Virus record (IMG/VR): IMGVR_UViG_3300023179_000175
Span: 1 to 46,240 of that record
Reading direction: 5' to 3' (one strand)
DNA: 46,240 nt
From: a virus
The notes beneath the pieces were generated by a model that was given only the letters and a program-made list of their open reading frames with translations, had not been told where the DNA came from and did not search any database. Position numbers and translations under genes: made by a program. Positions 27,732 through 46,220 of this stretch are shown piece by piece (the first letter of the stretch is position 1; each line of letters opens with the position of its first letter).

Positions 27732-29650
27732 TATTGCACCTGCAGGCTTGCGAGAGTGATTTGTTGGACGCTCTGCCCGTCCGCGTACCAAAGGGTACAG
27801 GGCGGCGAGCCGCGAGCGGCGCGGACCGACGGGCTGGCGTCTTGAACAAGGAAATACCAGCCCCGGGACTGTACGACGTCGGCCGCGTCAAAGCCGGCGA
27901 CGTTGTTGATCGTTGCGGCCTGTTGAGCCGACAGGGTCACGCCGGGGCGAATTGCGCCGTACAGAAGAGCCGCGTTGATCGGATCCAGCGCGGCGGCTTC
28001 TATCAGGGCGTAGCCTTCCGCGTTGTACGGAATCGACGGCGTCCCGGTAAGCAGCGTCATAAGCGCAAGCTGCAAGCTGTTGTTGAGCCAAATTTGGTTC
28101 ACATAGCTGTCGAGCCACGCGAAGCTCCCGGAGATCGACCCGGGATAGACGAACACGAATTGATCGTTGGCGGTCGCGTAAGCCCCATAGAAGTTATAGC
28201 CGTTGGCGATAAGTTGGTCCGCGACGGTCGAGCTTGTGACGCTGGCGGACATGCCGGCCTGCGAACGGAAAGCGAGGGTCGCGCGAGCGTTGGCCCGGCT
28301 GAAGTCCAGCGAGGCGATAAAGCCCATGACCATTGCGCCAAGATATTGGTCGGTCGGGCTGTAAATCGCCATGGTTCCGCTGTACCCGGCGGCGGCAATC
28401 TGGCGGCCGGCGCAAAGCGCGCTGTCGGTGATCGCGAGCGGGTCGGTATCCCAAAGGACATATACGTAGCGATCGTCTTGCGCGTTGACCCACGCCGCGA
28501 AGGCCAATTCGTCCGCAAGCGACGGCGCGAAAGTCGTCGTGAAGCTGGCGAAGTTTTGAGTCGTGGCGATAAGCGCGTCCATATTGGTCGACGGAACGCC
28601 TTCGGGCGCGCCTTGCGACAGATCCGCCCCGGTCGCCGTCGTAAGCTTCAGGGACGTCGCCAGAGCGCCCGAAGCCTGCGTGATCGTGCCGACGGTCCCC
28701 GGCGTGCCCCCGGTGATCACGAAGGCGCTCGAAACGCTGTCGAATGCCACGGTCGCCGGCCCGGCGCTGATAGTCGTTGACGACGCAGTTTGCGAGGGAC
28801 TTACAACATACGTGCCGGTCCCTCCCGTGCCGGTAAGCCGAGCCGTGATGACGGTTCCGGCGGTAACGCCCGTCCCGGAAAGGACTTGACCAACGGCAAG
28901 CGCGCCGGACGCCACGGCCGAAACGGTCATGGTTCCGTAAGAGCCGGTAATCGTGGTCGACGCGACGGACTGCGACAGGGAGACCTGATAGGTTCCGACG
29001 CCGTTCGCCGTGCCGGAAAGTTGCTTCTGGACTTGAGTCCTCGTGGTCACGCCGGTTCCGGCGAGGATTGCGCCGTTCTGGACGCTCCCGCCGCCGACGG
29101 CGGTAACGGTGAGAATCTGTCCGGAGATCGACCCGGTGACCGAAAGGGTCGTGGTCGTGGCAATAGCGGCCGTGGTGACGGCGTCGAAAGCCGCAAGGGC
29201 CGTCTGGATAGCGGTCGCCGCTGCAGAGAAGGACGCGACGGCGGTTAGGTCGATCGTGCCGGACGTCTTGGCAACGCCGTTGATCGTAAGCGTGATCGTC
29301 CCGGTCGGAAGCGCGTTGAGCTGCGCAAGGGTCAAAGTCGCCAGCGAGCCGCCCCGGACGTAGGGCGCGACGCCCCTTGTGTTCGTCGGGTATTGGGCGA
29401 CCAAGAGGGCGGCCGGCTTGACGGTGCTGTTGTCGTAGCCGTTGAAATAGATCGCCGCTTGCGCCGCTTCCGCGCTGGATCCGCCGAAGTATGCCGCGAC
29501 GGCGAGGGCCGACGAAAAGGACAGGACGGATCCGATCGGGGGCCGCGTGCTGTCCGTAAGCAAGAGGCCGGAGAGATCCAGCGCGGACCCGCCGGCCGAA
29601 ATGACCCCCGGGTTGACGTTGACGATCGCGGACGCGGGGATTGCGGGCAT
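27731..29650 (-). CDS. Tail sheath protein (DUF3383) with inserted surface repeats
   Basis: 639 residues, ATG at 29650. N-terminus VNVNPGVISAGGSALDLSGLLLTDS and the C-terminal half (DELAFAAWVNAQDDRYVYVLWDTDP, ATLAFRSQAGM, NGYNFYGAYATANDQFVFVYPG, DSYVNQIWLNNSLQLALM) are diagnostic of DUF3383 contractile sheaths. Residues about 165-305 hold two tandem copies of a roughly 65-residue beta module (TMTVSAVASGALAVGQVLSG ... GTGTYVVSPSQTASSTTI) found also in the decoration and fibre proteins. Domain insertions into sheaths are usually exposed on the outside. Defines the phage as a myovirus. Confidence 0.85.
   Translation of the reverse strand: MPAIPASAIVNVNPGVISAGGSALDLSGLLLTDSTRPPIGSVLSFSSALAVAAYFGGSSAEAAQAAIYFNGYDNSTVKPAALLVAQYPTNTRGVAPYVRGGSLATLTLAQLNALPTGTITLTINGVAKTSGTIDLTAVASFSAAATAIQTALAAFDAVTTAAIATTTTLSVTGSISGQILTVTAVGGGSVQNGAILAGTGVTTRTQVQKQLSGTANGVGTYQVSLSQSVASTTITGSYGTMTVSAVASGALAVGQVLSGTGVTAGTVITARLTGTGGTGTYVVSPSQTASSTTISAGPATVAFDSVSSAFVITGGTPGTVGTITQASGALATSLKLTTATGADLSQGAPEGVPSTNMDALIATTQNFASFTTTFAPSLADELAFAAWVNAQDDRYVYVLWDTDPLAITDSALCAGRQIAAAGYSGTMAIYSPTDQYLGAMVMGFIASLDFSRANARATLAFRSQAGMSASVTSSTVADQLIANGYNFYGAYATANDQFVFVYPGSISGSFAWLDSYVNQIWLNNSLQLALMTLLTGTPSIPYNAEGYALIEAAALDPINAALLYGAIRPGVTLSAQQAATINNVAGFDAADVVQSRGWYFLVQDASPSVRAARGSPPCTLWYADGQSVQQITLASLQVQ
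28735..29155 (-). repeat. Tandem beta modules in the sheath gene, shared with two other virion genes
   Basis: Two copies of a unit of about 65 codons. The unit ends with a GTGTYxVSxSQ block followed by alternating Ser/Thr. Related tandem copies are in the decoration gene (about 33060-33480) and a single copy in the fibre gene (about 19438-19640). Confidence 0.6.
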
Positions 29651-32978: not shown

Positions 32979-33896
32979 TTATGGGGCGGTCGAGGTGATC
33001 TTAACCAGCTCGCCGGCGAGGGCATTGCTGGCGACGTACCACTTGGTTTCAATAGCGCCGGTCGCGGTCACGGTGGCGCTGGCGGCGGTCTGCGTCGGGC
33101 TCACGATGTAAGTCCCCGTTCCGCCCGACCCGGTCCCGTACCCGGTAATGAAGCTGGCGGCGGTGACGTTGGCCCCGGCGAGCACTTGGCCGATCGCCAG
33201 CGTGCCGGATCCGACGGCGGTCACGGTCATTGTGCCGTACGTGCCGGAGACGGTCGTGCTGGCGACGGTCTGCGCAATGCTCACCGAATAGGTGCCAATG
33301 CCCCCGGTCGTGCCGGAGAGCTGGCGGGCGACGGTAGTCCCCGAGACGACATTGGTCCCGGAAATGGTCGCGCCGGCGACGACGGTCCCGGATCCGACGG
33401 CCGTAACCGTCATGACGTTGTCGACGATCGACGCAGTCACCGAGAAGGTCGAAGCGGCGATCGACGCGGTAACGCTCGCGTTGGCGATGGTCGCCCCGGC
33501 GGCGGCGGTCACGATCGCGCCGTCTGCGTAGCGGGCAAAAACCTTCTGTCCGGGGACGGCCGCGCTGGATCCGTCATTCTTGGCCCAAAAGTCGCCGCCG
33601 TTCATGAGCGTGACGGGGAGGCCGGCCGGAACGACAGACGAAAAGTCGTCGAAAAACGCGGTGATCAGCGCTTGCTGTTCCCGGTGAATGAAGCCGGCCG
33701 GGAGCCCGGTTCCGAAGCTGAAAGCCTGTCGGCGAAGCCCGGAGACCCACGCAAAGCGGGCGACGGTCACGCCGCTTGCGCCCGCGACGTGCCCAAGGCC
33801 GTCCGGGGTGAGCACGGCGGACCGGGGGTTGCCGCTGGCAAAGTCGCCAGCGACGGCGGGGGCCGGATTGGCGTTGACTTGGGTCTGGAAAGGCAT
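32979..33896 (-). CDS. Capsid decoration/cement protein with surface repeats
   Basis: 305 residues, ATG at 33896. The N-terminal 130 residues ([48 protein letters not shown]) match the structural cement family found between protease and DUF2184 capsid genes. Residues about 140-275 are two tandem beta modules ([20 protein letters not shown] ... [18 protein letters not shown]) related to those of sheath and fibre. Last 25 residues return to the cement-type sequence, so the modules are inserted. Likely exposed on the capsid surface. Confidence 0.75.
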
Positions 33897-33908: not shown

Positions 33909-35252
33909 TTAGATTGCGCGCTTGAGAGCGGCGGCGGTCGGGAAGCGAGCGCCGAAGTCGGCGGCCGGGGCGGCGTCTTGGGCGATGCGCGGACGCTCCG
34001 ACCCGGGGACGGGCAGGGCTTTCAGCACGGCGCGGTAAGCGCTCTTGGGCACGCCCGCCAGATCGACCTTAAGGGTCTCGAGGGCGAAGCCGTACACGTC
34101 GGCGGCGCTGTCCATGGCGACGACTTCGCCGACGTACGGGAAGACGTCGCGCTCCGCTTCGCGAAGGGCCTTGAAGTCGGCGGCGGCGTCGGCGCGCACC
34201 TTGCGAATCGCGGCGTCCATGGCGGGCTTGTCCTTCGGGGGCGGCATGGCGTCGTCGTCGTCGTCCATGTCCGCGTCGTCCATGTCGGCGTCGTAGCCGT
34301 CGGCGGCCGTGCCGCCCATGGCGCGGATGGCGGCCATGGTTTCGTCGTCGACCTTGCCTTCGAGCATGGCGCAAATCTTGCCGACCATGTCGCCGCCGTC
34401 GTCGTCGATTGCGGGCATGGCGTCCGGCTCGCTGGCGGGAACGGCCCCATTGAGCGCGCCGATGATTCCGACGACGTCGTCGACGTCCAGCGAGCCGTCT
34501 TGCGCAAGCTTGGGCGACACGGCCCGGAGTACGCGGGCCGGAAGGTCGCGGGTCGTCTTGGCGTAATTCTTGCGGGTCACGCCGTTGACCAGCTTGCCAA
34601 AGTCAATGCGGGCGTCTTGAGCGAGGCGGGGCATGATCGCCGCCGCCAGAGCACCCGAGAGCATTAGCGCGGTACGTGACGTGACCATGTGCAATCCTTC
34701 GATTTGGCTATCGCCAACGACTACGTCCGACCCGGCCCGGCCTGATTCGACCAAAGCCACGTGGTTTCCGCGTATGTTTCGCATGACGCCGTCGAAATGC
34801 AAGCCTTTGTAATTCCCCGGCGTCATATCGGCGTCGTAGCGGTACGCGGCGGACAGCTCTTGCTGATCCCGGCTTTCGATTCCCGCGATCGCCCCGGCCG
34901 CCCAAACCACGAGAGAATTGCGCAAGTAAGGGTCACGCCATTCCGCGTCCGTCCCGAGCGAGCCGACGACAAAATCGGGTTGGTGAGACTCTTCGTCCAG
35001 CGCAGAGACCGGGACGTGCTTCGACAGCAGGGGCAAATTGTTAAACGTCCCGGCGGCGCGCTCGAGCTCTTCCGGATCCCGTAGCAGATAATAGACCTTG
35101 TTAGGGTCAAGCCCGAGCTCTTCGCACTTCGGAATCTCGCGGCCGTGGTACGGGTTGACCGCCGCCTTGCTGATATTGGACGCAACGACGTGCAGCCGGC
35201 CGTCGACGTCGTACCGCCGGGCCGATCGGTCAAAGGCGAATCGAATAGTCAT
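33909..35252 (-). CDS. Prohead protease fused to scaffold-like domain (DUF2213)
   Basis: 447 residues, ATG at 35252 overlapping the tailspike stop (ATGA). Residues 1-185 are the DUF2213 protease: FDRSARRYDVDGRLHV, ISKAAVNPYHGREI, TFNNLPLLSKHVPVS, GNHVALVESGRAG with the likely His/Ser catalytic pair. The rest is helical and very acidic in the middle (DMDDADMDDDDDA), suited to scaffolding. The tetrapeptide A-(Q/M)-D-(A/G/S) occurs at 211, 250, 344, 379 and 424, cutting the scaffold part into pieces, as expected of a self-degrading maturation protease. Confidence 0.8.
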   Translation of the reverse strand: MTIRFAFDRSARRYDVDGRLHVVASNISKAAVNPYHGREIPKCEELGLDPNKVYYLLRDPEELERAAGTFNNLPLLSKHVPVSALDEESHQPDFVVGSLGTDAEWRDPYLRNSLVVWAAGAIAGIESRDQQELSAAYRYDADMTPGNYKGLHFDGVMRNIRGNHVALVESGRAGSDVVVGDSQIEGLHMVTSRTALMLSGALAAAIMPRLAQDARIDFGKLVNGVTRKNYAKTTRDLPARVLRAVSPKLAQDGSLDVDDVVGIIGALNGAVPASEPDAMPAIDDDGGDMVGKICAMLEGKVDDETMAAIRAMGGTAADGYDADMDDADMDDDDDAMPPPKDKPAMDAAIRKVRADAAADFKALREAERDVFPYVGEVVAMDSAADVYGFALETLKVDLAGVPKSAYRAVLKALPVPGSERPRIAQDAAPAADFGARFPTAAALKRAI

Positions 35253-37732
35253 CCGCCCTTGACTCCGATGGCCGGACAGCCCGACGACGCCCAAGCCATT
35301 GTCGGGGGCGTGGTCGGGAGCGCGCCGTAGGTCAGCGCGGCCGTGCGGTGCGTGCGGACCGACGTTGAGCTTAGGGAGCTGGATCCGTGGCGCACGTGAA
35401 GGTCGACATTGGCGATAAAGGTCGAGATCGTCGGCGTTCCGGAAAACACCGCCGCCAGCCACATGGGGCCGCCTAGACGGCGATACGTCCCGGCCCAAGG
35501 CCATTCCGTGAGCGCCACGCCAGAGACGGAGCGCCCGCCAAGGTCTTCGATCAGGGACAGCTCTTTGCCGTTCCGGTCCGACCCGTACAGGCCAAGGCGA
35601 CAGTTTCCGCCGCCGACGGTGACATTGATCGCCAGAGCCGACGACAGCACGTCTTCGTCATAAGGCACAAGGTAAAGCGTGTCGGCGACCATGGCCGCCG
35701 TCGAAGCCCCGATCGAAAAGCCCTTGCCGGGATAGTAGCTTGTCCCGCCAGCGTTCCGGACCATGTGCGCGTACAGTTTGCGCTCGAAAAACACGTCGCC
35801 GGCGACCCGGTCGATGATCTCGGTATAAAGCTCGCCGTCGCGGCCGTTGGCGTCCGACAGCGCAAAAAGCCGGGCCTTGACGCCCGCCCCCGGCGACGAC
35901 GGATCGTCGCTTGCAAACTCAAAAACCCCGAAGCGGTCGTTTGCCAATTCGACCGTGCTTGCGCCTAGCCGAAGCCTCGAGCCGCCGGGCAGATCGTATG
36001 CGTAAATATCGGCGACGCCCTGCCCGAACAGGAATTGCCCGTTGTACCGGACGCCCGCCAGCTCTGCGCGCTTGATCCGGCCTTTAGTGCTCCGGCCAAG
36101 CTTGACCAGCTTTTGGCCGTCGGTCCCGACCGTGTAGGTTTCGGCGACGAATTCCATAGGGCCGAACAAATGGACGCGTTCGTTGTCCGTGATGCCTGTG
36201 TCGTCATCGCCAGAGTACAGGCGGAATGCAAAATCCTTGACCCGGCCGGAGATCCGAATGCCGTCGGAGCGTTCCTTGAAGACGCCGTAATAGCTGCGCC
36301 GGGTCGTCGGATCCGCGACCGACCCGGGAACGGTAAGCTCGCCTTCCGCGTCAATCTCAATCCAGCCGCCGCCGCAATTTTCGATCGTCAACGCGGACCC
36401 ATACGGGACGTTGGTCGGGTCTGCAGGGACGCCCGTAAAGTATCGCACAATATTACGGGTGCGGATCTTTAGCGCCGTGGTCTTGACGCCTATTAAACGC
36501 GGGCCCCACCACCCCCCGTCAACAGTGATATCCCCGTCGACCAATTCGATTTCGTTAACGCCAACTGTCCGCGTCAAGTACACCGAATAGCGGTGATTGT
36601 TGACCATCCACACGCCATTAAGGTGCAGCGGGCCGGACGGATCCGGATTCACTTCCGCGCCGAAGTCCCACCCGGGGCTGTGCGCAAGCGTCGACGTCGT
36701 TGTCGTGTCGACGCCCGTAGGAGGGACCGCGCCGGTGATCGGGCAGAGCTGATTGATAGTGCATTCGCCGGACCAGCCTACGTTAGCGAACGATCCCCGC
36801 CAAGCGCCGGTGACTTCCTCAACGACAATAACGGTCGCCTTGTCGCGCTTGTCGCATCCGTAGACCGTCCGGTTGGCGTCCGTGCCAAAGAATCGGCCCG
36901 AAGGATTGATCGGGCTGGACACCGCAACGGCCGGATCCGACGGGCCGTGATATTGGAACAAGATGTAGCGGAAGATGTTGCTTTGCGTGACGAAAGGCCC
37001 TTCGCGGGCGTTTTGCTCGCAAATGAGCCGGCCGTAAACGAAGCCGTTGTCGTCAAATAGGCACGTGCTCCGGCGATTGAGGCACGTCGGCTCAACGGCG
37101 GGATTGTAGACGCTCACGGGGCCCGCGCCGTCGCCGTAATTCCAGACAGCGCCCGGGTTGGACCGAGTGTCCCAATTACTGCGACAGTTGCGGAAAGCGA
37201 TCGTGTCGAATTGCACCAGATCGTAACCGCGAACCTCGAGCGGGCATTGGCATTTCGGATCCGGCCACGTCTGCGCGTTGCCTGTTGTCGGCGTGCCCCC
37301 GTCGAAAGCAAAAAGCCCGGTGAGCTGGAATGTGCCCCCGGTGAGGGAATTGGCTTTCAGGATCGCCCGGGATTGACCGGACGTGATGGTCGTCGGGACG
37401 CCCCCGACGACGCCCGGAAAGGTCGAAACGATTTCAGGCGAGACGAAGACGACTTCGCCGCCGATCGCCGCCCAAGAGATCCAGTCGTAATTGACTTCTG
37501 CGCAGTCGTGCAGGGCTGCGTTGACCACCACGCCCGGCGGCCGGGAAACGAAATACCGGCCGCGCATGAAGTTGAGCGTTCGACGTTGCGCCGCCGCCGT
37601 CGCCATGGCGGCTTCAAGCGCCGCCGCGTTGTCGGTCACGCCGTCGTTGACGCCCCCCAACAGATTGAACCAGAGCACGCCCCGGTCTTCGCCGGGGGAA
37701 CCTTGGGGCGAAATGATGACGGTCTCGGTCAA
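35249..37732 (-). CDS. Tailspike-like beta-helix protein
   Basis: 827 residues from TTG 37732, chosen because TTGA overlaps the previous stop exactly as ATGA does elsewhere; an in-frame TTG at 37780 is possible. N-terminal GVLWFNLLGGVNDGVTDNAAALEAAMATAAAQ is the typical entry to a pectate-lyase-like right-handed beta-helix, and the long middle is strand-rich with many Asn and Gly turns. C-terminal 150 residues look like a lectin-type sandwich (ALAINVTVGGGNCRLGLYG). It probably binds or cleaves host polysaccharide. Its place between head protein and protease genes is unusual for a tailspike. Confidence 0.7.
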   Translation of the reverse strand: MTETVIISPQGSPGEDRGVLWFNLLGGVNDGVTDNAAALEAAMATAAAQRRTLNFMRGRYFVSRPPGVVVNAALHDCAEVNYDWISWAAIGGEVVFVSPEIVSTFPGVVGGVPTTITSGQSRAILKANSLTGGTFQLTGLFAFDGGTPTTGNAQTWPDPKCQCPLEVRGYDLVQFDTIAFRNCRSNWDTRSNPGAVWNYGDGAGPVSVYNPAVEPTCLNRRSTCLFDDNGFVYGRLICEQNAREGPFVTQSNIFRYILFQYHGPSDPAVAVSSPINPSGRFFGTDANRTVYGCDKRDKATVIVVEEVTGAWRGSFANVGWSGECTINQLCPITGAVPPTGVDTTTTSTLAHSPGWDFGAEVNPDPSGPLHLNGVWMVNNHRYSVYLTRTVGVNEIELVDGDITVDGGWWGPRLIGVKTTALKIRTRNIVRYFTGVPADPTNVPYGSALTIENCGGGWIEIDAEGELTVPGSVADPTTRRSYYGVFKERSDGIRISGRVKDFAFRLYSGDDDTGITDNERVHLFGPMEFVAETYTVGTDGQKLVKLGRSTKGRIKRAELAGVRYNGQFLFGQGVADIYAYDLPGGSRLRLGASTVELANDRFGVFEFASDDPSSPGAGVKARLFALSDANGRDGELYTEIIDRVAGDVFFERKLYAHMVRNAGGTSYYPGKGFSIGASTAAMVADTLYLVPYDEDVLSSALAINVTVGGGNCRLGLYGSDRNGKELSLIEDLGGRSVSGVALTEWPWAGTYRRLGGPMWLAAVFSGTPTISTFIANVDLHVRHGSSSLSSTSVRTHRTAALTYGALPTTPPTMAWASSGCPAIGVKGG

Positions 37733-38061
37733 AGCGGCGGTTCCCTGTTGTACGCCCGGATGGTCACGCGGCCTTCCCAAAGCACTTGCGGGGGCGTGAG
37801 ATTGTACGCCCGGACCGCAAAGCGCGCCGACTTGCCCGCCGTCCAGATCGCCGTTACGTCGTCTTGCGTCAACGTAATGATCTTTTCGAAGGCGTCCGCG
37901 CCCGCCGTGAGCTCTTTTCGCAGGATCCGATCGACCTCAAACCAGAGCGTTAGCACGGACAGATCGGACGTGCCGAAGCGAAATTGCAGCGTCACGCCTT
38001 CGCGGCCGTGAAGGTCGATCCCGCCAACGGCGTTGATAATGGCGGGCATTTCGTATGGCAC
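37729..38061 (-). CDS. Small hypothetical protein of head module
   Basis: 110 residues from GTG 38061, selected for GAGGG seven bases upstream; an upstream TTG lacks a site. Beta-rich, with LQFRFGTSDLSVLTLWFEVDRILRKEL and ARFAVRAYNLTPPQVLWEGRVTIRAYN, looking like an immunoglobulin-type or beta-sandwich domain. Coupled to the tailspike start. It could be a spike adaptor that anchors it, but no family is recognised. Confidence 0.6.
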   Translation of the reverse strand: MPYEMPAIINAVGGIDLHGREGVTLQFRFGTSDLSVLTLWFEVDRILRKELTAGADAFEKIITLTQDDVTAIWTAGKSARFAVRAYNLTPPQVLWEGRVTIRAYNREPPL

Positions 38062-38118: not shown

Positions 38119-38895
38119 CTAGAACCCGGGGATAATGCTCCGGGACGTGCAGCGACAGTTTATCTCGAATCCGGGCCAAGTCCACTTGCCCTCGAGATAC
38201 GCCCCCTTGGCGACGTCGTACTCTTTGCCGTTGAAGGCGACGTGCTCCGGCCGGGGATGCTTGCCGCCCTCCGAGTGCCGCCAAATCGCCTTGGTTATCC
38301 CAAGCTCTTGCTGTCGGACCCGCGTGATCAGCGACGTCGCTTTGTTGTTTTGGTCCCGGGAGATAAGCGCCGCGCGCCGGGTCGTTACGCCGTGTTGCTG
38401 GCGAAGCTCTTTTGCCAGTGCGCCAAGGTCACGCCCCGTCTGGACGCTGCGCATGACCGCGCCGTCAACGCCCGTCATGTATTGCGCCGGGATGCTGCGA
38501 ATCAGGGCGACATTCTCGCCAATGCCCGCCTGCACAACGTCATTCTGCACCCGGGACGCCTTGAATCGGACCGTAAACCCGCGCTTGCGCAGCATGGCGG
38601 CTAGGGCCCTCTCGCTGCGTTCCGTGGCGGCTAGGGTGAAGTATCTCGCCAGCTCCGGCGCTAGGGCGTCAAAATCGGCCTGCCAGCGCCTTGTAAGTTT
38701 CCGGAGGGCCGCGCGTAGCTCTGCCGACGGGGACGCGTCCTGCGCCATTTCTGGCGGGTTGGCGGCATATGTCCGAAGGATCACCCGCTGCACGTCCTTT
38801 GCCATGCGGTCGATCTGTTTATCCAGCGCGCGCTGATAGGCGAGCCGGATCCCTTCGTTTGGCTGGACGGCCGGGATGGTTTTATCTTTTTTCAT
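38119..38895 (-). CDS. Mu gpF/SPP1 gp7-like minor head protein
   Basis: 258 residues from ATG 38895 with AGGG upstream. The C-terminal half holds the MuF signature: ARAL...TARRAALISRDQNNKATSLI followed by KAIWRHSEGGKHPRPEHVAFNGKEYD and WPGFEINCRCTSRSI with the conserved G-x-x-x-x-C-R-C. N-terminal half is helical. AQDA occurs at residues 51-54, so the first 53 residues may be removed at maturation. MuF proteins enter the head with the portal and are sometimes injected. Confidence 0.8.
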   Translation of the reverse strand: MKKDKTIPAVQPNEGIRLAYQRALDKQIDRMAKDVQRVILRTYAANPPEMAQDASPSAELRAALRKLTRRWQADFDALAPELARYFTLAATERSERALAAMLRKRGFTVRFKASRVQNDVVQAGIGENVALIRSIPAQYMTGVDGAVMRSVQTGRDLGALAKELRQQHGVTTRRAALISRDQNNKATSLITRVRQQELGITKAIWRHSEGGKHPRPEHVAFNGKEYDVAKGAYLEGKWTWPGFEINCRCTSRSIIPGF

Positions 38896-38903
38896 TTGGG
38901 CCC

Positions 38904-38932
38904 TTGTTATTCGTACCAATAACCTGTATATA
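38904..38932 (+). promoter_or_regulatory. Promoter of the plus-strand island
   Basis: TTGTTA (38904-38909), 17 bases, TATATA (38927-38932), followed by a small hairpin and GGGAGG before ATG 38972. The inverted repeat GTTATT-CGTACC-AATAAC (38906-38923) lies between the boxes and resembles the GTAC motif of other cassettes. It also covers the start region of the minus-strand MuF gene. Confidence 0.6.
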
Positions 38933-38971
38933 ACGACTGTACCGGCAATTCAGCCGGTTAGGGAGGCCCCG

Positions 38972-39139
38972 ATGCCTGACTTTCTTGCTCTTCTCGACAC
39001 GGTCCCCGGTCAAGTGACCCTGTCCGTTTTCGCTCGCAAGGCCAACATGAGCGAGGCCGCGATGCGCGCAGAATTGCTCGTGAACGCCCCTCTCGTGCGG
39101 TACTTCCTCGAGACCGTTGCAAAGGCGGTGCGCTCATGA
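38972..39139 (+). CDS. Small hypothetical protein
   Basis: 55 residues, ATG at 38972 with GGGAGG six bases before. Helical: DFLALLDTVPGQVTLSVFARKANMSEAAMRAELLVN. The segment SVFARKANMSEAAMRAEL could be a helix-turn-helix. First gene of the island; its TGA overlaps the next ATG (ATGA). No family recognised. Confidence 0.6.
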   Translation: MPDFLALLDTVPGQVTLSVFARKANMSEAAMRAELLVNAPLVRYFLETVAKAVRS

Positions 39140-39366
39140 GCTCGCACATTACCCCGTCTTCAATCCCGGCCCTGCCCGACGGTTATACGGCTTGGGGCCG
39201 GTCAACCCGGAGAGCGGGCGGCATGTTTCACGCTCATGTGCTTGGGTCGACCGCTTGCGGGCGCGTGAGACTGGATCGCCACGAGAGCGAGCCGCCGAAG
39301 GGGCTTGGCGACATGCAATATTGGGGCATTTGCGCCCGGTGTTTTCGGAAGGGGGGCAATTCATGA
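39136..39366 (+). CDS. Small hypothetical protein with possible zinc site
   Basis: 76 residues, coupled by ATGA on both sides. Contains HAHVLGSTACGRVRLDRHE and a C-terminal CARCF, so His/Cys residues could bind one metal ion. The sequence with W-G and CGRV near the centre resembles short phage accessory proteins. Function unknown. Confidence 0.55.
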   Translation: MSSHITPSSIPALPDGYTAWGRSTRRAGGMFHAHVLGSTACGRVRLDRHESEPPKGLGDMQYWGICARCFRKGGNS

Positions 39367-39569
39367 GCGGCCCCGCCAGATTCAAAATCGGCGACAGGGT
39401 CCGGGTCGTGGTCGGCGACCCGGACTACGGACTTGAAACCGGGTCCGTCGCGGTCGTCGATTCCGTAAGCTACACGGGCGGATTGATCCGCCTTGTCGAA
39501 CCCGGGGCTGTGCGCTTCGGGGCGTGGCGCTTCGAGCTCGTAACCACGGGAGACCGCAATGCCGATTGA
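39363..39569 (+). CDS. SH3/KOW-like small protein
   Basis: 68 residues from ATG 39363. FKIGDRVRVVVGDPDYGLETGSVAVVDSVSYTGGLIRLVEPG has the strand pattern of KOW/SH3-like barrels, with a G-D-x-V-x-V start and a G-x-V strand. Such small barrels bind nucleic acid or protein. ATGA-coupled upstream, and it overlaps the next gene by 11 bases. Confidence 0.6.
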   Translation: MSGPARFKIGDRVRVVVGDPDYGLETGSVAVVDSVSYTGGLIRLVEPGAVRFGAWRFELVTTGDRNAD

Positions 39570-39705
39570 CGTCGTTTACCGCGACCGCGAAGGCGGCCGG
39601 TTTGTCTTTTACACCTATTCAGAGGGCCGGCGCGTCCGGGTCTCGGAAAAATGGGTGAGCCGGGAGCTCGCCAGAAAAACGATTCGGGTTGTTTATGTGA
39701 CTTGA
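39559..39705 (+). CDS. 48-residue hypothetical protein
   Basis: ATG at 39559 after GGGAGACC, stop TGA at 39703-39705 within the TTGACG of the next promoter. Encodes VVYRDREGGRFVFYTYSEGRRVRVSEKWVSRELARK, a basic beta-hairpin plus helix. The strong leader and exact fit between neighbours support translation. Function unknown. Confidence 0.5.
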   Translation: MPIDVVYRDREGGRFVFYTYSEGRRVRVSEKWVSRELARKTIRVVYVT

Positions 39706-39730
39706 CGGCCGGCCGGGTTATTGGTACAAA
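39702..39730 (+). promoter_or_regulatory. Sigma70-like promoter with GTAC operator-like motif
   Basis: TTGACG (39702-39707), 17 bases, TACAAA (39725-39730); motif GGTTATTGGTACAAATAA across the -10. Near-identical to the minus-strand promoter at 18309. Leader GGGAGACCACGAC precedes ATG 39759. The TGA in the -35 is the stop of the preceding gene. Confidence 0.7.
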
Positions 39731-39758
39731 TAATTGCAGTCAACAGGGAGACCACGAC

Positions 39759-40337
39759 ATGAACAAGCTTCTCGCCCCCGTCCGCAGCGCCCCCGCCGGG
39801 GCCGTGATCGTCAAGGACAAGCTGTCCGACGCCGTCGCGTACGTCTGGACGAACAAGGACGGCCGGCCCTGCGCCAAGGGATACCACGGCAAAGCGAACA
39901 GGCCCGATTATCACTTTTACTTCCGCAGCGAAGCGAGCCGGGAAAAACAAGTCCGGGAGCACTTCGAATCCCGCCGGGCCGCTCTCGAGTACAAGGCGAA
40001 GCGGGCCGCCGAAGACGCCGCCGCCCGGGCCAAGGGTCACGGGTGTGAAGTCGGGTCGATCTTCGTTTGCTCTTGGGGCTACGAACAGACCAACATCGAC
40101 TGGTATCAAGTCGTTGAGCTGCGGGGCAAGTCGACCGTCGTGATCCGCCAGATCCATAGCGCGGACGCCAGCAACGGAAACGAAGGTTGGGCCCAAGGCA
40201 AGAGCGTTCCGGCGATCGACCACTTCAAAGGCGACGCCATGGTAAAGCGGATCGCCCGGGGCCGGATCGCCATTGAGAGCTACGCCAGCGCTCACCTTTG
40301 GGACGGCCGGCCCCGCCACTGGACCGCGTACCACTAG
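39759..40337 (+). CDS. Hypothetical phage/plasmid protein
   Basis: 192 residues, ATG at 39759. The N-terminal part (VKDKLSDAVAYVWTNKDGRPCAKGYHGK) is followed by a long basic helix (SREKQVREHFESRRAALEYKAKRAAED). The C-terminal half reads VGSIFVCSWGYEQTNIDWYQVVELRGKSTVVIRQI. The pattern I-F-x-x-S-W-G-Y-E-Q-T-N-x-x-(F/W)-Y-Q-V recurs in unnamed proteins of plasmids and phages. No catalytic motif is obvious. Monocistronic, between two promoter cassettes. Confidence 0.65.
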   Translation: MNKLLAPVRSAPAGAVIVKDKLSDAVAYVWTNKDGRPCAKGYHGKANRPDYHFYFRSEASREKQVREHFESRRAALEYKAKRAAEDAAARAKGHGCEVGSIFVCSWGYEQTNIDWYQVVELRGKSTVVIRQIHSADASNGNEGWAQGKSVPAIDHFKGDAMVKRIARGRIAIESYASAHLWDGRPRHWTAYH

Positions 40338-40371
40338 GGGGCTTGACGCCCCCTCCCTTTAAGCGTACAAA
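40336..40371 (+). promoter_or_regulatory. Promoter whose -35 lies in a hairpin loop
   Basis: TTGACG (40343-40348), 17 bases, TACAAA (40366-40371). The -35 TTGAC is exactly the loop of a perfect 7-bp inverted repeat AGGGGGC (40336-40342) / GCCCCCT (40348-40354), followed by CCCTTT. The hairpin could terminate the upstream transcript. Leader GGGAGACAAATCAA precedes ATG 40399. Confidence 0.65.
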
Positions 40372-40398
40372 TAACTCACAGACAGGGAGACAAATCAA

Positions 40399-40686
40399 AT
40401 GGCTAAATTTATTCTCACCGCGACGCCCGCCAGTTTTACGCGGTCGGGGGATATCGTTTTGGTCGCGGTCCGATTCAAGTCGGCCCCGTTGCTTCGAAAA
40501 GAAGTCGAAGTCAAAAACGAATTCAACGCGGTGCGCATCATGGACGCGGAATGCGAGAAGCTGGACGCGCAAGGCGTACCCTACGCCGCCCGCCTTCGCC
40601 TCGCCGACAAGCGCGCGCCCAACGGCATGAAAAGCTGGCAACTTCGCGCCACGCACCGCGACAGGGATCTTGGGCAAATCGCTTGA
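40399..40686 (+). CDS. Small hypothetical protein
   Basis: 95 residues, ATG at 40399 behind GGGAGAC. Beta-rich with FILTATPASFTRSGDIVLVAVRFKS, then KNEFNAVRIMDAECEKLDAQG and a C-terminal strand GMKSWQLRATHR. It is monocistronic: promoter cassettes lie on both sides and its TGA is part of the next TTGACG. Unknown function, possibly an early anti-host factor (inference). Confidence 0.6.
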   Translation: MAKFILTATPASFTRSGDIVLVAVRFKSAPLLRKEVEVKNEFNAVRIMDAECEKLDAQGVPYAARLRLADKRAPNGMKSWQLRATHRDRDLGQIA

Positions 40687-40711
40687 CGTCCCCGGAGATT
40701 AAGCGTACAGA
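40683..40711 (+). promoter_or_regulatory. Sigma70-like promoter with GTAC operator-like motif
   Basis: TTGACG (40683-40688), 17 bases, TACAGA (40706-40711), in the motif ATTAAGCGTACAGATAAT. Same layout as 4428-4400. Leader GAGACAGACAA precedes ATG 40731. Its TGA is the stop of the preceding gene. Confidence 0.65.
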
Positions 40712-40730
40712 TAATTCATGAGACAGACAA

Positions 40731-40994
40731 ATGATGTACGTTATCAAATACCCGGTCGGGAGCTTCGGATTCGTCGGAAGCGTCCCGGCCCCTCTCGCCT
40801 TCTCTAATCTGGACGAGGATTTGCTAGAGACGGCGGCCCAATGCGGGCCCGGGTTTGCGGCGGCCAAAGCCAAAAAGTCCGGAAGGGAATTCAAGTCCCT
40901 CTCGTGGCCTAGCGTTGCGGAAGCGGAAGCCGCCGCCCTCGCTTGGGCCGGGTCGCCGGAAGAGCTGGCGAAGCACTACAGGAGCCCGGTCTAA
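40731..40994 (+). CDS. Small hypothetical protein
   Basis: 87 residues from ATG 40731 (a second ATG follows directly). MMYVIKYPVGSFGFVGSVP opens a beta strand pair, then VAEAEAAALAWAGSPEELAKHY is a C-terminal helix. The N-terminus describes a permissive beta-hairpin domain. TAATG overlap with the next gene. No family recognised. Confidence 0.6.
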   Translation: MMYVIKYPVGSFGFVGSVPAPLAFSNLDEDLLETAAQCGPGFAAAKAKKSGREFKSLSWPSVAEAEAAALAWAGSPEELAKHYRSPV

Positions 40995-41179
40995 TGGCCC
41001 GGCCTGTCAAGCACGGCGAGCCCTTGAAGCGGATTGCGGTCGCCCTCGCGCCTAGCGAGATCGCCGCGATCGACGCAGAGCCGGGCCCCGCCACATATGG
41101 GCGCAACGATAAGATCCGGGAGCTGTTGAGCGAGGCGCTTAAGCGTCGGGCTTGGCGGTCGGAGGATCCGGACGCTTAA
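40994..41179 (+). CDS. Ribbon-helix-helix-like small DNA-binding protein
   Basis: 61 residues, ATG at 40994 overlapping the previous TAA. The sequence GEPLKRIAVALAPSEIAAIDA, then RNDKIRELLSEALKRR fits an Arc/CopG ribbon-helix-helix: one strand (KRIAVAL), helix A, turn, helix B with R-x-x-x-I-R-E-L-L. Such proteins repress by binding palindromes as dimers, and are candidates for the GTAC or TGAC dyads in this genome. The 3' end overlaps the convergent minus-strand gene by 41 bases. Confidence 0.6.
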   Translation: MARPVKHGEPLKRIAVALAPSEIAAIDAEPGPATYGRNDKIRELLSEALKRRAWRSEDPDA

Positions 41180-41279
41180 GCCACGCCGGGGGCGTGTACT
41201 GGATCGACGTCCGCTCTTGCAAGGGGCGGGCGTCGTCTTCGTCGTACAGATCGGGGGCGTCGGCGGGGGGCGGTATCAT
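41139..41279 (-). CDS. Small acidic/proline-rich protein downstream of portal
   Basis: 46 residues, ATG at 41279 overlapping the portal fusion stop (ATGA). Sequence is Pro- and Asp-rich (IPPPADAPDLYDEDDARPLQE; YTPPAWLKRPDPP) and probably disordered. It overlaps convergently with the ribbon-helix-helix gene. Being translationally coupled to the zeta domain end, it could be a small partner or antitoxin-like peptide, but this is speculative. Confidence 0.45.
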   Translation of the reverse strand: MIPPPADAPDLYDEDDARPLQERTSIQYTPPAWLKRPDPPTAKPDA

Positions 41280-44269
41280 GGGCGACTCTCCGATATCAGA
41301 ATGGGCGGCGTGTCTTTGGGGACGTTGTTGTCCCGGAAGGACCAAGCGTCGACCAGATCCTTAACGCCCTCAAATGACTTTTCGTTTTCGGTGTTCCCGA
41401 GCACGATCGACGGCGGGACGTAGCGCCCGCTCTCCGGGTTGAGGAAACGCCCAACGGCGCGCTTGGCCGCCTCTTGCCGGGGAAGGTGCATGTAGTGCGC
41501 TTCGACCCGATAGCCGCGATCCTTGAAGCCCTGCACGAGCGCTTTAGCCTTGTCCGGGCTTTTCATCGTCGCATCGTGCACGAGATTCAGCCCATTTTCT
41601 TGTGCGATGCGGGTTATTTCGTCTGCGATCTCGCTAGACTCTTCGTGCACTTGCGCGGCGTTCCACCCCTCGAATTCGGGAAGCTTCGCCTTGATGTGGT
41701 CCGGGTCCAGCACGATCGCACGGCCCGGGTCGTACACATGACCCTCAAACCATGACTTGCCGGAGCCGCCACGGCCGCCAAGCACGGTAAACGTCGGCGC
41801 TTTACCGTCCGCCGGGCGCGCCGCGTCGACTTTTTCCCGCGTGAAAAATTCGTCAATGATCGACTTGTGCAACGCCTGACGCTCCGGCGTCCAGCTCCCG
41901 TCCGCTTGCTTATGCTCGTGGTTCGTCGGCGCGCGGGCGGCGATACGCGACTCAACGTCTTTTATCCTCTCACTCGTGTCGTCCGGAAAGCCGTTGATAA
42001 TGTCCGCTTCGGTGACGTCGAATTTGTCATGGAGCCGGGCGAAGTCCGCCGCGTTGAAGTCCGCCGGGTCGATATAAGCGTCCGTACGGTCGAAGCCCGG
42101 GCCCGCGTGCGCCTCCCGTACCTTGGCGCGACGTTCCGCCTCTATGCGCTTCTTTTCGGCCTTCTCTGCGGCTTCCCGGGCGGCCGTGGCTTCGGGCGTC
42201 TCTTCGCTGGCGGCCGGTGCAGGGTCACGCTTCGGTTTGCCCTTGCTCGAGCCGCCGCCCCCGGATCCAAACTGCCCGTTGTCGGCGCGCTTGTGTTTGC
42301 TTTCGTCCCATTCCGCGTCTTGCGCTTGGCGGGCGGCCGGCCCGGCGTATCCAGACACAAGCGGCCCAAGCCGGTTTTGCAAGTGTTCGTCTTTTAGACC
42401 GTAGCCCTTGCCGATTCCCCACGCGCGGTCTAGCAGGGCCGTCGCCTTTTCCGCGTCCATCTTGGCAAGCCGTTTTTTCCAGAGCGCCGTAGCGGAATCG
42501 CTTAACCCAAGCGGGCTAGGAACCAGCGTGGCCCCAAGCCCTTTTTCAAGGGCGTTGTACGTGGTCGACCCGATTCTTTGGCCCTGAAATTTCGGATCCA
42601 GCTCTATCCGGTCTATGAAAAACGCGTCGCCATGCGGGTTAACGGTGACGTGCCCGACGCGCGCGCCGTTCGATTCGATCTCGAAATTGTTCGCCCGTTT
42701 TTTCTTGAGCGTGACCGCCACGGTGCTCTTTCCCTCTTCCGGCTCGCTCTGTTCTGTAGTCCCCGCGCCTTCGCCAAACTGCCCGTTGTCGGCGCGCGGG
42801 TGATCCGACTCGCGGAATTCCGCGTCTTGCGCTGGCGGCCCGTCCTCTTCTGCGTCGTCCGGTACGTCGGGCTCCGGGGGTTGTGGCGGCGGGTCGCTTA
42901 GGTCCAGCCCCGCGTAGGGGCTTGCGGGGTCGTTTGCCAGCCGCTCGCGTACCTCTTCGGGGGAGATCACGCCGGCGTCGATATAGGTCGTATCAATCTC
43001 GCTCTTGGTCTTCTGGATCGCGGCCCGGGCCGTGTCGTCATCTTCCCAAAGCGGAAGATACTCAAAACCGATATCCGGATCCACCGCGCCGAAAAGCGAG
43101 AGCTGGATAACGGACAGGACGACGTTGAGCGGATCCGTAAACAAGTCTTCCTGCGCAGCTTTGACCGCCGCGTAAAACGTCTTGATCTCGCCGTCACTGG
43201 ACGCGTTGAGACCCGACGGCGTGATGCCCAAGAGCACCACGAGCGGAATCCCGGCGATCGACGCCATTTGCTCTTGTGACTGTGCTTGCAGGGCGTCCAG
43301 CGACCCGAGCGGCGTTGAGACGTCGACAATGTCTTCGTCCGTCATGTCGACCATGATCAAGTCCCGGTTATCCCGGGTCGCCGCGTACAGTTTAGCCCGC
43401 TCAATGAGGGCGTCCGCGCCGCCGCCAGACAGGACGGCCGCCATGTTGGTTTTAAGGATCGTCTTCGAAAAACTGTGCAGCAGATTGCTCACGGACTCGC
43501 GAGTGCGGATCCAGTTGTCGACGTAGGGCATGGCCTGTTGAGTGCGAGACAGGCCCCCGAAGCTGTACGACGGTTTAAGCAAGTCCGGGACGGGCTGAGA
43601 CACAAGCGTCATGAGCCGCGTACGGTTGACCCGGTTGCCCATGACGAACCAGTCACGCGGTCGGTAATAGTTTTCGTCGAGCGGGTCGGCCGTGTTGTAC
43701 GCGTTCGGATAGACCCACGCCGGCTCAACGACGCGGAAGCCCCGAAGCGACCCACGGCGGATCTTGCGCGGGTCCAGCGTAAGCGGCGTCTCGAGCTCGC
43801 CGGGCTTGGTCGGGCCAAGGTCGATGAAAATATGGGCGCGGCCAAAAAAGCCGTCCAGCATTGTCGCGTCACGGAAGGCGTTCCGCACGCGCAATTTGCG
43901 CATGACCTCTTCGATCGCCTTGATCTTTTGTTCGTCCGCCTCGCCGCCGGCCGACGTGACCTTGATCCAGCGGCGAGTCATTTCCTTCGCCCAAATGCTC
44001 GAGATTTGGCGGAATTCCGGCCGTTGCGCGAGCTGCGTTAGGTACGGATACCCGAGGAAAGCCTGCCCTTCGCCGTACGCGATCGAAGCCTGCGTCGCCC
44101 ATGCATAAACGGTTTGTTCGGCGCTATCCATGGCGAGCGCGCTTGCAGGGGCGACGCCCGGGGCCGGGACGTACGGGGCGAAGGGGGCCGGGGCGTATTC
44201 TTGCCCGGGGCGCTGGACCGTCGCCGAAACGCCGTGGCGCAACTTCATGTGTCGGCGCGGTGCGCTCAT
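41276..44269 (-). CDS. Portal protein fused to GNAT-like and zeta-toxin-like domains
   Basis: 997 residues, about twice a normal portal. Residues about 40-460 are a DUF1073 portal (WAKEMTRRWIKVTS; MLDGFFGRAHIFIDLG; DNWIRTRESVSNLLHSFSKT; GITPSGLNASSDGEI). A linker at 480-499 has AQDAEFRESDHPRADNGQFG. Residues 513-640 look like a GNAT acetyltransferase (FIDRIELDPKFQGQRIGSTTY). A second, near-identical linker spans 649-668. Residues 822-997 are a zeta-toxin-type kinase with P-loop GGRGGSGKS (831-839), VLDPDHIKAKLPEF and LVHDATMKSPDKA. The AMDS at 46-49 and AQDA at 480 and 649 match the proposed protease site. Confidence 0.85.
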   Translation of the reverse strand: MSAPRRHMKLRHGVSATVQRPGQEYAPAPFAPYVPAPGVAPASALAMDSAEQTVYAWATQASIAYGEGQAFLGYPYLTQLAQRPEFRQISSIWAKEMTRRWIKVTSAGGEADEQKIKAIEEVMRKLRVRNAFRDATMLDGFFGRAHIFIDLGPTKPGELETPLTLDPRKIRRGSLRGFRVVEPAWVYPNAYNTADPLDENYYRPRDWFVMGNRVNRTRLMTLVSQPVPDLLKPSYSFGGLSRTQQAMPYVDNWIRTRESVSNLLHSFSKTILKTNMAAVLSGGGADALIERAKLYAATRDNRDLIMVDMTDEDIVDVSTPLGSLDALQAQSQEQMASIAGIPLVVLLGITPSGLNASSDGEIKTFYAAVKAAQEDLFTDPLNVVLSVIQLSLFGAVDPDIGFEYLPLWEDDDTARAAIQKTKSEIDTTYIDAGVISPEEVRERLANDPASPYAGLDLSDPPPQPPEPDVPDDAEEDGPPAQDAEFRESDHPRADNGQFGEGAGTTEQSEPEEGKSTVAVTLKKKRANNFEIESNGARVGHVTVNPHGDAFFIDRIELDPKFQGQRIGSTTYNALEKGLGATLVPSPLGLSDSATALWKKRLAKMDAEKATALLDRAWGIGKGYGLKDEHLQNRLGPLVSGYAGPAARQAQDAEWDESKHKRADNGQFGSGGGGSSKGKPKRDPAPAASEETPEATAAREAAEKAEKKRIEAERRAKVREAHAGPGFDRTDAYIDPADFNAADFARLHDKFDVTEADIINGFPDDTSERIKDVESRIAARAPTNHEHKQADGSWTPERQALHKSIIDEFFTREKVDAARPADGKAPTFTVLGGRGGSGKSWFEGHVYDPGRAIVLDPDHIKAKLPEFEGWNAAQVHEESSEIADEITRIAQENGLNLVHDATMKSPDKAKALVQGFKDRGYRVEAHYMHLPRQEAAKRAVGRFLNPESGRYVPPSIVLGNTENEKSFEGVKDLVDAWSFRDNNVPKDTPPILISESRP

Positions 44270-45915
44270 TTGAAAGCCTCTGACAAGCCCGACCGAATCC
44301 GCATTGGTTCGCGGCCCGTGCGACTGTATGCGATCATGACCGCGTCCGCTAGGTTGGGGCTCTTTGTCCCCTCTGGCGTCTTCTCAATGAAAATCTTGCC
44401 GTTACGCAGATCGTACGTCGGTTGTGAGAGCTCGCCGGTAAGCTTCCCGAGCAAGGGCAGTTTGCCGGACAGACTTATGAGATCGTCGGCGTTATAGGGC
44501 GCGCTTTCCGTGACGGCCCGGTGCGTGGCTTCAAAACGTCGACGCAGCGACCACCACGCTTGCGCCTTGCAATTCAAGAAAAAATCTTTGTTCCGCCGGG
44601 CCAAGAGCGGATTGCGGTCCGGGTTGGACTTCTCGCGGGGATCGACGAAGCCTTCCGGGTCGTACACTTCGGCGGATCCCCGGAACGGCCGGACGTCCAG
44701 CATGTGCCGGCCCGCCTCGAGCCGCTTCCCGTTGATTATGCGCGCATCGCCCCGGACGCCAACGCCTAGCCCGTCGGAATCATATTTGAAGCCGGGCGCG
44801 CCGAAGTCGTCACAAAGCATGAAGACTTTTTCGACGCTCCCAAAGATATCGTCGCCCTTCCCGTACCACTCGTGCAGCTCTTCCAAAAACCAGCCGTTGA
44901 GCAACGCAAGCGCTAGGGCGTCCTTACCTTCGTCCGCCACGTCGAAGCCGCCAATTCGCCCGCCGACGGGAGCAATCTGCAGCTTGGTATGGGCGTCGAT
45001 CGCCGACTGCACCCACGCCGACGGAATCAGCACGCCCTGTTGACTGGCGTTATAGTCGCGGTCGACTTCCTGCGCCAAGCTCACGGGGTCTAGGCCCCCC
45101 GGGGCTTTAAGCTTGTCGTACCAATCTTGGGATTTGCGCGGGTCGTCCCGCCAGTCGAAAATAAAGATTTGCTTGCTAGGCCACGAGAAACGCTTGACCG
45201 CAAACGGGTTGCCCGGGCCGTTGACGGACGAAACGTCTATGCGGCAATTCGTGGTCGCGGACAAAGAGGCGTCGACTTCTGTCGGGTGCTCTAGGTGCGC
45301 CGCTTCGTCGACGAAATAGAGCGTCGCCCGGTCGCCCCGGCCAATGCCCATTCCCGCTTCCCCGGCTAGGTGCGAGCCGGTATCCGGAAAAGACATGCGC
45401 ATATGCGGCGCGTGTACGCGCGGGTTAAAGCCGCCCCGGAATTCGGGCGGCAAGTATTCCATGAATTTCCGCGCCTTATAAAACAGGCTTTTGGGCCCGT
45501 CGATCTTGTCGACATACTCTTCCTTGCGTGACCCAAAGCCAATTACAAGGCCGTTCCGAAACAGGCAAAGGCTGCAGCTCAACGCGATTGCCAGCCACGA
45601 CACGCCGCAATCTCGCGACTTTTCGGTGAGCCCGCCGCGTCGATCCCGCCAGCTCTCGAGCACCCACGAGATCCACTCTTCCTGTTTTGGGAACAGCAGG
45701 AACGGGACCAGCGTCGGAATGTCGACGTCCGCGTTTCGCGGGTCGAAGGTCACGCCCCAATCTTGAATGAATTGCGCCGGGTTTTCCCGATAGAACGTCT
45801 TGAGCGGCGGCAAGCGTTTGCCCGGGTCTTCCCGAATCCACGCGAGCCGCTTCATGCGGGCGTTAAAAACGGCCGTATAGTCCGGGGCTTGCCAGTCGAA
45901 GCCGTCCGGAATCAC
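44266..45915 (-). CDS. terL: Terminase large subunit
   Basis: 549 residues from GTG 45915, chosen because GTGA overlaps the preceding stop; a TTG at 45936 is possible. ATPase: Walker A-like EKSRDCGVSW with the GKS-less form seen in many terminases, Walker B ATLYFVDEAAHL ending in the catalytic Glu, and coupling NCRIDVSSVNGPGNP. Nuclease domain: FDVADEGKDA with the first metal Asp, CDDFGAPGFKYDSDGLG, and DAVMIAY near the end. Packages DNA through the portal, to which it is ATGA-coupled. Confidence 0.9.
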   Translation of the reverse strand: MIPDGFDWQAPDYTAVFNARMKRLAWIREDPGKRLPPLKTFYRENPAQFIQDWGVTFDPRNADVDIPTLVPFLLFPKQEEWISWVLESWRDRRGGLTEKSRDCGVSWLAIALSCSLCLFRNGLVIGFGSRKEEYVDKIDGPKSLFYKARKFMEYLPPEFRGGFNPRVHAPHMRMSFPDTGSHLAGEAGMGIGRGDRATLYFVDEAAHLEHPTEVDASLSATTNCRIDVSSVNGPGNPFAVKRFSWPSKQIFIFDWRDDPRKSQDWYDKLKAPGGLDPVSLAQEVDRDYNASQQGVLIPSAWVQSAIDAHTKLQIAPVGGRIGGFDVADEGKDALALALLNGWFLEELHEWYGKGDDIFGSVEKVFMLCDDFGAPGFKYDSDGLGVGVRGDARIINGKRLEAGRHMLDVRPFRGSAEVYDPEGFVDPREKSNPDRNPLLARRNKDFFLNCKAQAWWSLRRRFEATHRAVTESAPYNADDLISLSGKLPLLGKLTGELSQPTYDLRNGKIFIEKTPEGTKSPNLADAVMIAYSRTGREPMRIRSGLSEAFK

Positions 45916-46220
45916 AACAGGCCCAAGGTCTCGCAAAGCACCCGGAGCGCGCCGGGCGGCAAGGTGACGGGGGCGGACGTATGGCCCGACTCGCTCAAAT
46001 AGCCCTGCAGGGCGGCCGTGGCGTCCGCGACGGTCTCTTGTGCTTCGTCCCGCTCGCGCTCCATTTCCCGAAACGTGTCGCGCATCGTCGAGACCATGCC
46101 TTCAAGCTCGTCTAGTTGCTCGCTAAAGGGTTTCGGCGCGGTTAGGGCCGTAACGGTCCGGTCCAGCCGTTGCATGGCTTCGGGCGTGCAGCATGACGGG
46201 CAAGCGCCTAGCTGCGGCAT
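45912..46220 (-). CDS. Small coiled-coil protein upstream of terL (start may lie outside window)
   Basis: At least 102 residues. Begins here at ATG 46220 without a ribosome-binding site, and the frame stays open to the window edge, so the true start may be outside. N-terminal cysteine cluster CPSCC, then a long heptad-like helix FSEQLDELEGMVSTMRDTFREMERERDEAQETV. Not a recognisable TerS; a TerS is encoded at 1785-2537. Overlaps terL by GTGA, so it may be a packaging accessory (inference). Confidence 0.55.
   Translation of the reverse strand: MPQLGACPSCCTPEAMQRLDRTVTALTAPKPFSEQLDELEGMVSTMRDTFREMERERDEAQETVADATAALQGYLSESGHTSAPVTLPPGALRVLCETLGLL

Follow-up and report, generated by a model that had tools for sequence, protein, structure and literature searches.

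Portal gene and cargo domains

The window analysed here is the whole stretch of 46,240 nucleotides of viral DNA held in IMG/VR as record IMGVR_UViG_3300023179_000175, and the element under study is a gene encoding a phage portal protein with a long C-terminal tail that carries two further domains, referred to below as cargo. A first-pass annotation of the DNA had proposed a 997-residue protein at 41276-44269. This open reading frame (ORF) is indeed real, with an ATG start and no interruption, but its strand had to be corrected to minus, the plus strand across the interval being broken by stops. The same annotation had named an artificial joining of separate genes as a possible source of error. 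Portal and zeta-type kinase share one frame in three independent phage contigs from three other metagenomes (L002, L003 and L004), so the fusion is no artefact, and an assembly chimera was excluded as its source. In the protein, two enzyme-like domains follow the portal, and one copy of a linker precedes each of them (Table 1).

The DUF1073 portal predicted at the N-terminus was borne out by Pfam, which placed Phage_portal_3 (PF06381, DUF1073) at residues 75-427 (E=3.9e-81; 272.9 bits against a cut-off of 33.8), and by a PHROG portal match to the fusion ORF (4e-106). The terminase large subunit (TerL) and a MuF-type head protein are encoded by gene neighbours, and the HI1409-like portal model of NCBIfam matched below its cut-off. 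An AlphaFold2 model of the whole 997-aa protein was computed with a 39-row alignment. Foldseek searches with this model retrieved the portals of E217, Pa193 and Pam3 first, and later other portals, AvrRxo1-ORF1 and a plasmid zeta.

At the C-terminal end, Zeta_toxin (PF06414) was recognised at residues 819-962 (E=1.6e-24), and the region from about 760 to 997 was modelled with a predicted local distance difference test score (pLDDT) of 84-98 (means over ten-residue blocks, most of them exceeding 90). The Walker lysine K838, together with S839, D857, H875, E877, R941 and R949, was unchanged in 34 of 34 homologues; loss of this lysine and of substrate residues in all homologues had been named beforehand as a refuting outcome. 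D857 is the counterpart of zeta's catalytic D67 in the alignment, and the position of zeta E116 is occupied by Asp (D899) in 32 of the 34. Among four close phages, the ratio of nonsynonymous to synonymous substitution rates (dN/dS) was 0.04-0.10 for the zeta domain versus 0.08-0.15 for the portal body, which places both under purifying selection. Given this low ratio and the invariant catalytic residues, selection is acting to keep the zeta domain functional, in the simplest case as an enzyme, and on sequence its identity as a zeta-type kinase is certain. In profile searches, the nearest relatives of solved structure were zeta, AvrRxo1, Pnkp1 and PezT. The likeness to AvrRxo1, which comes from the rows of the PDB and NCBIfam searches, is a structural one: NCBIfam model NF041405 (AvrRxo1/XopAJ) gave 29.9 bits against a cut-off of 300, outside family membership. 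The domain is of a 'GGRGGSGKSW' type found in phages and akin to zeta, AvrRxo1 and Pnkp1, so that UDP-N-acetylglucosamine (UDP-GlcNAc), which the first-pass annotation had named along with other small molecules as a zeta substrate, is kept as just one option. A scan of GTDB genomes with the full 997-aa protein returned no match.

The other cargo gave an Acetyltransf_1 match at residues 525-576 with E=0.0011, just under the Pfam cut-off, and residues 517-640 of the whole-protein model had a pLDDT of about 60-83 (block means). A MAFFT alignment of three GNAT cargoes appeared misaligned, and the GNAT piece was therefore folded alone (pLDDT about 69), the matches in Foldseek being almost all GNAT acetyltransferases (best E=9e-4). 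Structure prediction thus returned both anticipated folds, the GNAT one with moderate confidence. We regard the GNAT identity of this region as fairly supported by structure and weakly by sequence, and cargo 1 as a probable acetyltransferase.

The two near-identical linkers already noted in the first pass, one before each cargo domain, follow the motif [WF]xExxHxRxxxGxF; no third copy was found in the six frames of the window. They are identical at 49 of 66 bases, which may help cassette exchange. Both have a pLDDT below 50 in the whole-protein model, and conservation of a linker that is predicted to be disordered is as expected of a recognised peptide.

Table 1. Features of the portal-cargo gene and of its neighbours (positions in the window).
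Feature	Residues or remark	Position	Strand	Evidence
Whole portal-cargo fusion ORF	997 aa, stop included	41276..44269	-	same fusion in L002, L003, L004
Portal body, Phage_portal_3 / HI1409-type	1-460	42890..44269	-	Pfam, PHROG, PDB relatives E217, Pa193, Pam3
Linker 1	480-501, AQDAEFRESDHPRADNGQFGEG	42767..42832	-	motif match; predicted disordered
Cargo 1, probable GNAT-type acetyltransferase domain	517-640	42350..42721	-	Pfam, AlphaFold2, Foldseek
Linker 2	649-670, AQDAEWDESKHKRADNGQFGSG	42260..42325	-	motif match
Charged helical connector	~690-740	42050..42202	-	AlphaFold2 helix 692-720, low to moderate confidence
Cargo 2, zeta-type kinase + conserved N-terminal extension	760-997	41279..41992	-	Pfam, 34 homologues, AlphaFold2, dN/dS
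Walker A GGRGGSGKS	831-839	41753..41779	-	K838 invariant 34/34
Terminase large subunit	immediately upstream; overlaps portal start	44266..45936	-	
MuF-type head protein	without cargo or linker; downstream of portal gene	38119..38919	-	Pfam, PHROG
DUF2213 head maturation protease	putative linker processor	33909..35504	-	Pfam, PHROG
Small convergent ORF	faces portal stop; ATG at 40994	40943..41179	+	kept beside zeta-portal in L002-L004

Exchange of cassettes and spread of the linker motif

The zeta domains of L002, L003 and L004 are 94-96% identical to that of the window. Between portal and zeta, the window reads linker-GNAT-linker, L002 linker-other domain-linker, and L003 and L004 a single linker: the middle cassette is replaced or absent in close relatives, with the reading frame kept. 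A ParB-like reading of the L002 middle cassette was made by eye only. Exchange was also seen between L008 and L010, which are 98% identical over 7334 bp, diverge 5 bases before the first codon of the linker, rejoin past the cargo, stay matched through the linker of the following gene and then diverge again. In both phages a small ORF at the 3' end of the cargo is exchanged along with it, a 67-aa CPCC-family protein in L010 (7825-8028; Pfam E=5e-13) and an acidic 76-aa protein in L008 (7826-8056). These small ORFs could be immunity genes.

To follow the motif at large, IMG/VR was searched with a DNA pattern for WxExxHPRxxxGxF, the same residues in reverse order serving as control. The pattern was found in at least 120 stretches versus 10 for the control in the whole collection, and residues outside the fixed pattern were also skewed (D-A-E before W, Ser/Lys within, Gly-rich after); the occurrence of the motif is not due to chance. 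Since its synonymous bases are random (24.7% identity) while the residues are conserved, the motif is held at the protein level, and the idea that the linkers are mere scars of DNA recombination was set aside for the family at large. At least 40 residues follow the last motif in every case, and at least 100 in 62 of 66 (median 225); repeated motifs mostly lie 144-266 residues apart, which is one domain length. Among 166 portals surveyed (87 viral and 79 genomic), tails of at least 100 aa were present in 36 and short tails in 130, and the motif occurred in 25 of the 36 long tails versus none of the 130 short-tailed portals.

The linker, which had been tied at first to DUF1073 portals, proved to have a wider range. 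Among the matches listed, Pfam and PHROGs identified DUF1073 portals, Mu portals, MuF and minor head proteins and a head protease upstream of the motif, and many motif cassettes sit on separate proteins. Head genes were scored beside motif ORFs in 34 of 80 loci, a lower bound obtained with window-type profiles alone. Behind the motif, the listed matches comprise ADP-ribosyltransferases, zeta, PBECR nucleases, LPD3, NUDIX, 2H and kinases, as well as ParB, RelA/SpoT and topoisomerase IB. The search proposed in the first pass for other portals with a different cargo behind the same linker was successful, including in bacterial genomes, where PBECR3 (L339) and DNA topoisomerase IB (L362, 6390-7463, an Elusimicrobia metagenome-assembled genome; Pfam 3e-23) take this place. 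Linker-tailed portals also occur in culturable phages, namely the Xanthomonas phages PhiXhv-5 and PhiXhv-7 and the Pseudomonas phages Orimi01 and Orisa01.

Some of the proteins that carry the motif are of unusual build. A 1354-aa protein (L215, 955-5016) has six linker motifs with GNAT-, ParB- and kinase-like segments. The portal of L052 (4758-10142) has a 1273-aa tail with three linkers, in which Pfam found no domain at E<=0.05; ParB-like and zincin-like stretches were seen there by eye and are not claimed. In L181 (91-3117, minus strand) an RNA ligase, a methyltransferase, a linker and a zeta/polynucleotide-kinase-like domain make up one protein, by appearance a cassette for RNA repair. In four ORFs among L177-L256 a DUF2213 head maturation protease follows the motif, and for this reason the linker tag is not limited to effectors.

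Because portal, MuF, protease and separate cassettes all bear the linker and are together inside the procapsid, scaffold recognition and cutting by a prohead protease are its two natural readings. Hydrophobic-x-Glu sites are the cut sites of T4-type prohead proteases, and the [WF]xE core of the motif resembles them. It is conceivable, and we put it forward as a speculation that has the odds against it, that the motif is a general cargo tag of tailed-phage heads, recognised in the procapsid, most simply by the prohead protease, which would free, inside the capsid, the enzymes carried by portal, MuF or separate head proteins for ejection with the DNA. The linker motif would then be a phage-head counterpart of encapsulin cargo-loading peptides. 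Should the linker mark cassettes generally, it would give a sequence handle for phage effectors and anti-defence enzymes without known homology in metagenomes, and might also serve as a signal by which phage heads could be loaded with proteins of choice.

Predicted position in the virion and competing explanations

The orientation assumed in the first pass, with the C-terminal side of the portal facing the capsid interior, agrees with the cryo-electron microscopy of E217, where a helical barrel at the C-terminal end of the portal projects into the head (PMC10329688). As the barrel points into the head in homologues, tail and cargo would sit with the packaged DNA, and from these homologues the window portal would hold its tail and cargo inside the head, with at most twelve copies in each virion. 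In the Pa193 structure, portal residues 529-765 are without density (PMC11042391), and the unresolved tail of the E217 portal is an inorganic pyrophosphatase (InPase; Pfam E=3e-43). The gp19 portals of Pseudomonas phages E217 and Pa193 are of the same family as the window protein, with an enzyme behind the barrel and a C-terminal part unresolved in the virion, but they have a single pyrophosphatase cargo and no linker motif. In the accessible part of the study of cyanophage P-SS2 (PMC2784084), ORF030, a MuF-zeta fusion named there as major capsid protein, gave a mean of 96.5 peptides in virion mass spectrometry and tops the peptide counts among the tabulated ORFs; this is detection at the level of the protein, the peptides not being assigned to the MuF or the zeta domain. 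Like the window protein, ORF030 joins a zeta domain to a head protein, the two zeta domains being related (36% identity), whereas its carrier is MuF and it has no linker motif.

Several effector domains chained to a virion or head component are one mark of polyvalent proteins, which are known from phages and conjugative elements, and the window protein bears this mark. In the accessible part of Iyer et al. 2017 (PMC5512222), portals fused to PBECR, 2H and InPase and MuF fused to a zeta-like kinase are described, injection is predicted, and GNATs are among the cargo of such chains on head proteins; the GNAT-zeta pair of the window portal is not mentioned in that part, and the word 'linker' does not occur in the main text. 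MuF polymorphic toxins of temperate phages (Jamet et al. 2017, PMC5576092) also have exchangeable C-terminal enzymes, their carrier being a head protein encoded beside the portal gene; the main text mentions neither linker nor motif. In the window, by contrast, the carrier is the portal itself, MuF is separate and bare, and no immunity gene was recognisable. With epsilon/zeta and PezAT the window domain shares the zeta fold and catalytic residues, but it is fused to a structural protein and has no recognisable epsilon/PezA antitoxin. Enzyme-portal and MuF-zeta fusions are therefore already known, and the window protein belongs to the polyvalent kind. What is new, as far as an incomplete literature shows, is the GNAT-zeta pair on a portal, the in-place exchange of cassettes and the linker as their common mark.

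We favour, with a probability of roughly 0.6, a working portal whose tail cassettes travel in the virion and act as early effectors, in the manner of polyvalent proteins. The GNAT and zeta cassettes would be made late in infection and packaged through their attachment to the portal ring, up to twelve of each; they would enter the next host cell with the DNA, or be exposed and act at the portal, the GNAT acetylating and the zeta phosphorylating host or defence molecules. At the protein level, the linker would mark the boundary at which cassettes are gained, lost and exchanged and would act as a recognition motif, perhaps also as a processing site. Enzymes that enter together with phage DNA can be active ahead of all phage gene expression, at the stage where defences decide the infection; carriage by the portal sets their dose at up to twelve, and the question of how folded enzymes leave the portal becomes testable. 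Packaging is supported for the homologues; injection is a prediction for them as for the window protein. Several points weigh against this proposal. The virion evidence comes from homologues, the window phage being known from its sequence, and no route by which a folded, portal-borne enzyme could pass a contractile tail tube is established, short of its cleavage or unfolding. Eleven of the 36 long portal tails are without the motif by pattern, several of them showing a variant by eye. The coenzyme A (CoA) loop of the GNAT domain reads QGQRIG, with Arg in place of the usual Gly (motif R/Q-x-x-G-x-G/A), and the domain may for that reason be inactive; single-protein scans of the viral contigs and of INPHARED phages with the GNAT region gave no relative at the sensitivity used.

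The cargo might instead act in the producing cell, a late kinase and acetyltransferase blocking cell-wall precursor synthesis or host enzymes before lysis, with the location in the virion incidental. Zeta toxins are known to phosphorylate cell-wall precursors, wall weakening has been proposed for MuF-fused zeta-like kinases (Iyer et al. 2017, in the accessible part), and the ejection of the window protein is something that we infer. We nevertheless hold this to be unlikely, since an enzyme meant for the cytoplasm would be poorly served by attachment to a ring of twelve copies at the packaging vertex, and since these same cassettes are also borne by MuF and other head proteins, an indication that their goal is the head. 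Somewhat less likely again is a polymorphic toxin serving the competition of lysogens with non-lysogens, as proposed for the MuF toxins, with the producer protected by an immunity gene. Cargo swapped at a fixed boundary is a hallmark of such toxins, MuF toxins are described in temperate phages, and the exchanged stretch of L008 and L010 includes the small ORF. In the window, however, no gene follows the cargo on the same strand; the neighbour of the zeta-portal, where an epsilon/PezA antitoxin was sought and none recognised, is convergent on the opposite strand and, being without a Pfam match, is at most a weak antitoxin candidate. Moreover, no integrase appeared among the window ORFs in a scan that was not exhaustive, and NUDIX, InPase and topoisomerase cargo elsewhere are not obvious toxins.

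That the tail is an inconsequential passenger, made of enzymes caught by recombination and tolerated by the portal, would fit the imperfect CoA loop and the 130 of 166 DUF1073 portals with short tails, showing that portal function does not depend on such a tail. The low dN/dS of zeta, a sign of strong purifying selection, and catalytic residues invariant in 34 sequences make this very improbable. The last alternative concerns the substrate and is compatible with virion-carried effectors: the zeta-like domain may be a polynucleotide kinase or a kinase of nicotinamide adenine dinucleotide (NAD) instead of one acting on sugar nucleotides, for RNA repair or cofactor manipulation. Profile matches to Pnkp1 and AvrRxo1 in the PDB, a weak match to the PHROG polynucleotide kinase and the RNA ligase that accompanies the linker-borne zeta of L181 speak for it, and AvrRxo1 phosphorylates NAD according to the accessible part of PMC5491322. 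Zeta itself is, however, the best single-sequence PDB match, the AvrRxo1 model scores far below its cut-off and a substrate is not readable from sequence, so we consider this a possibility of some weight that is more doubtful than not.

Gene neighbourhood

The stop of the terminase gene is overlapped by the start of the portal fusion gene. On the other side, beyond the MuF gene, Pfam and PHROG identified the DUF2213 protease, a cement protein and the major capsid protein. Small opposite-strand genes lie between portal and MuF (38876-41179, plus strand); three of them recur opposite the portal in L003 and L004, and two in L002. An 843-aa pectate-lyase-like (tailspike-like) ORF lies amid the head genes (35249-37780, minus strand) and had no relative among the loci examined. 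DNA polymerase, primase, helicase, exonuclease and a gp2.5-like protein are also encoded in the window. The tail sheath (27731-29650) and the cement protein (32979-33896), both on the minus strand, show short matches to the same PHROGs, 21413 and 38233, which suggests that their common stretch is an inserted repeat or an Ig-like domain.

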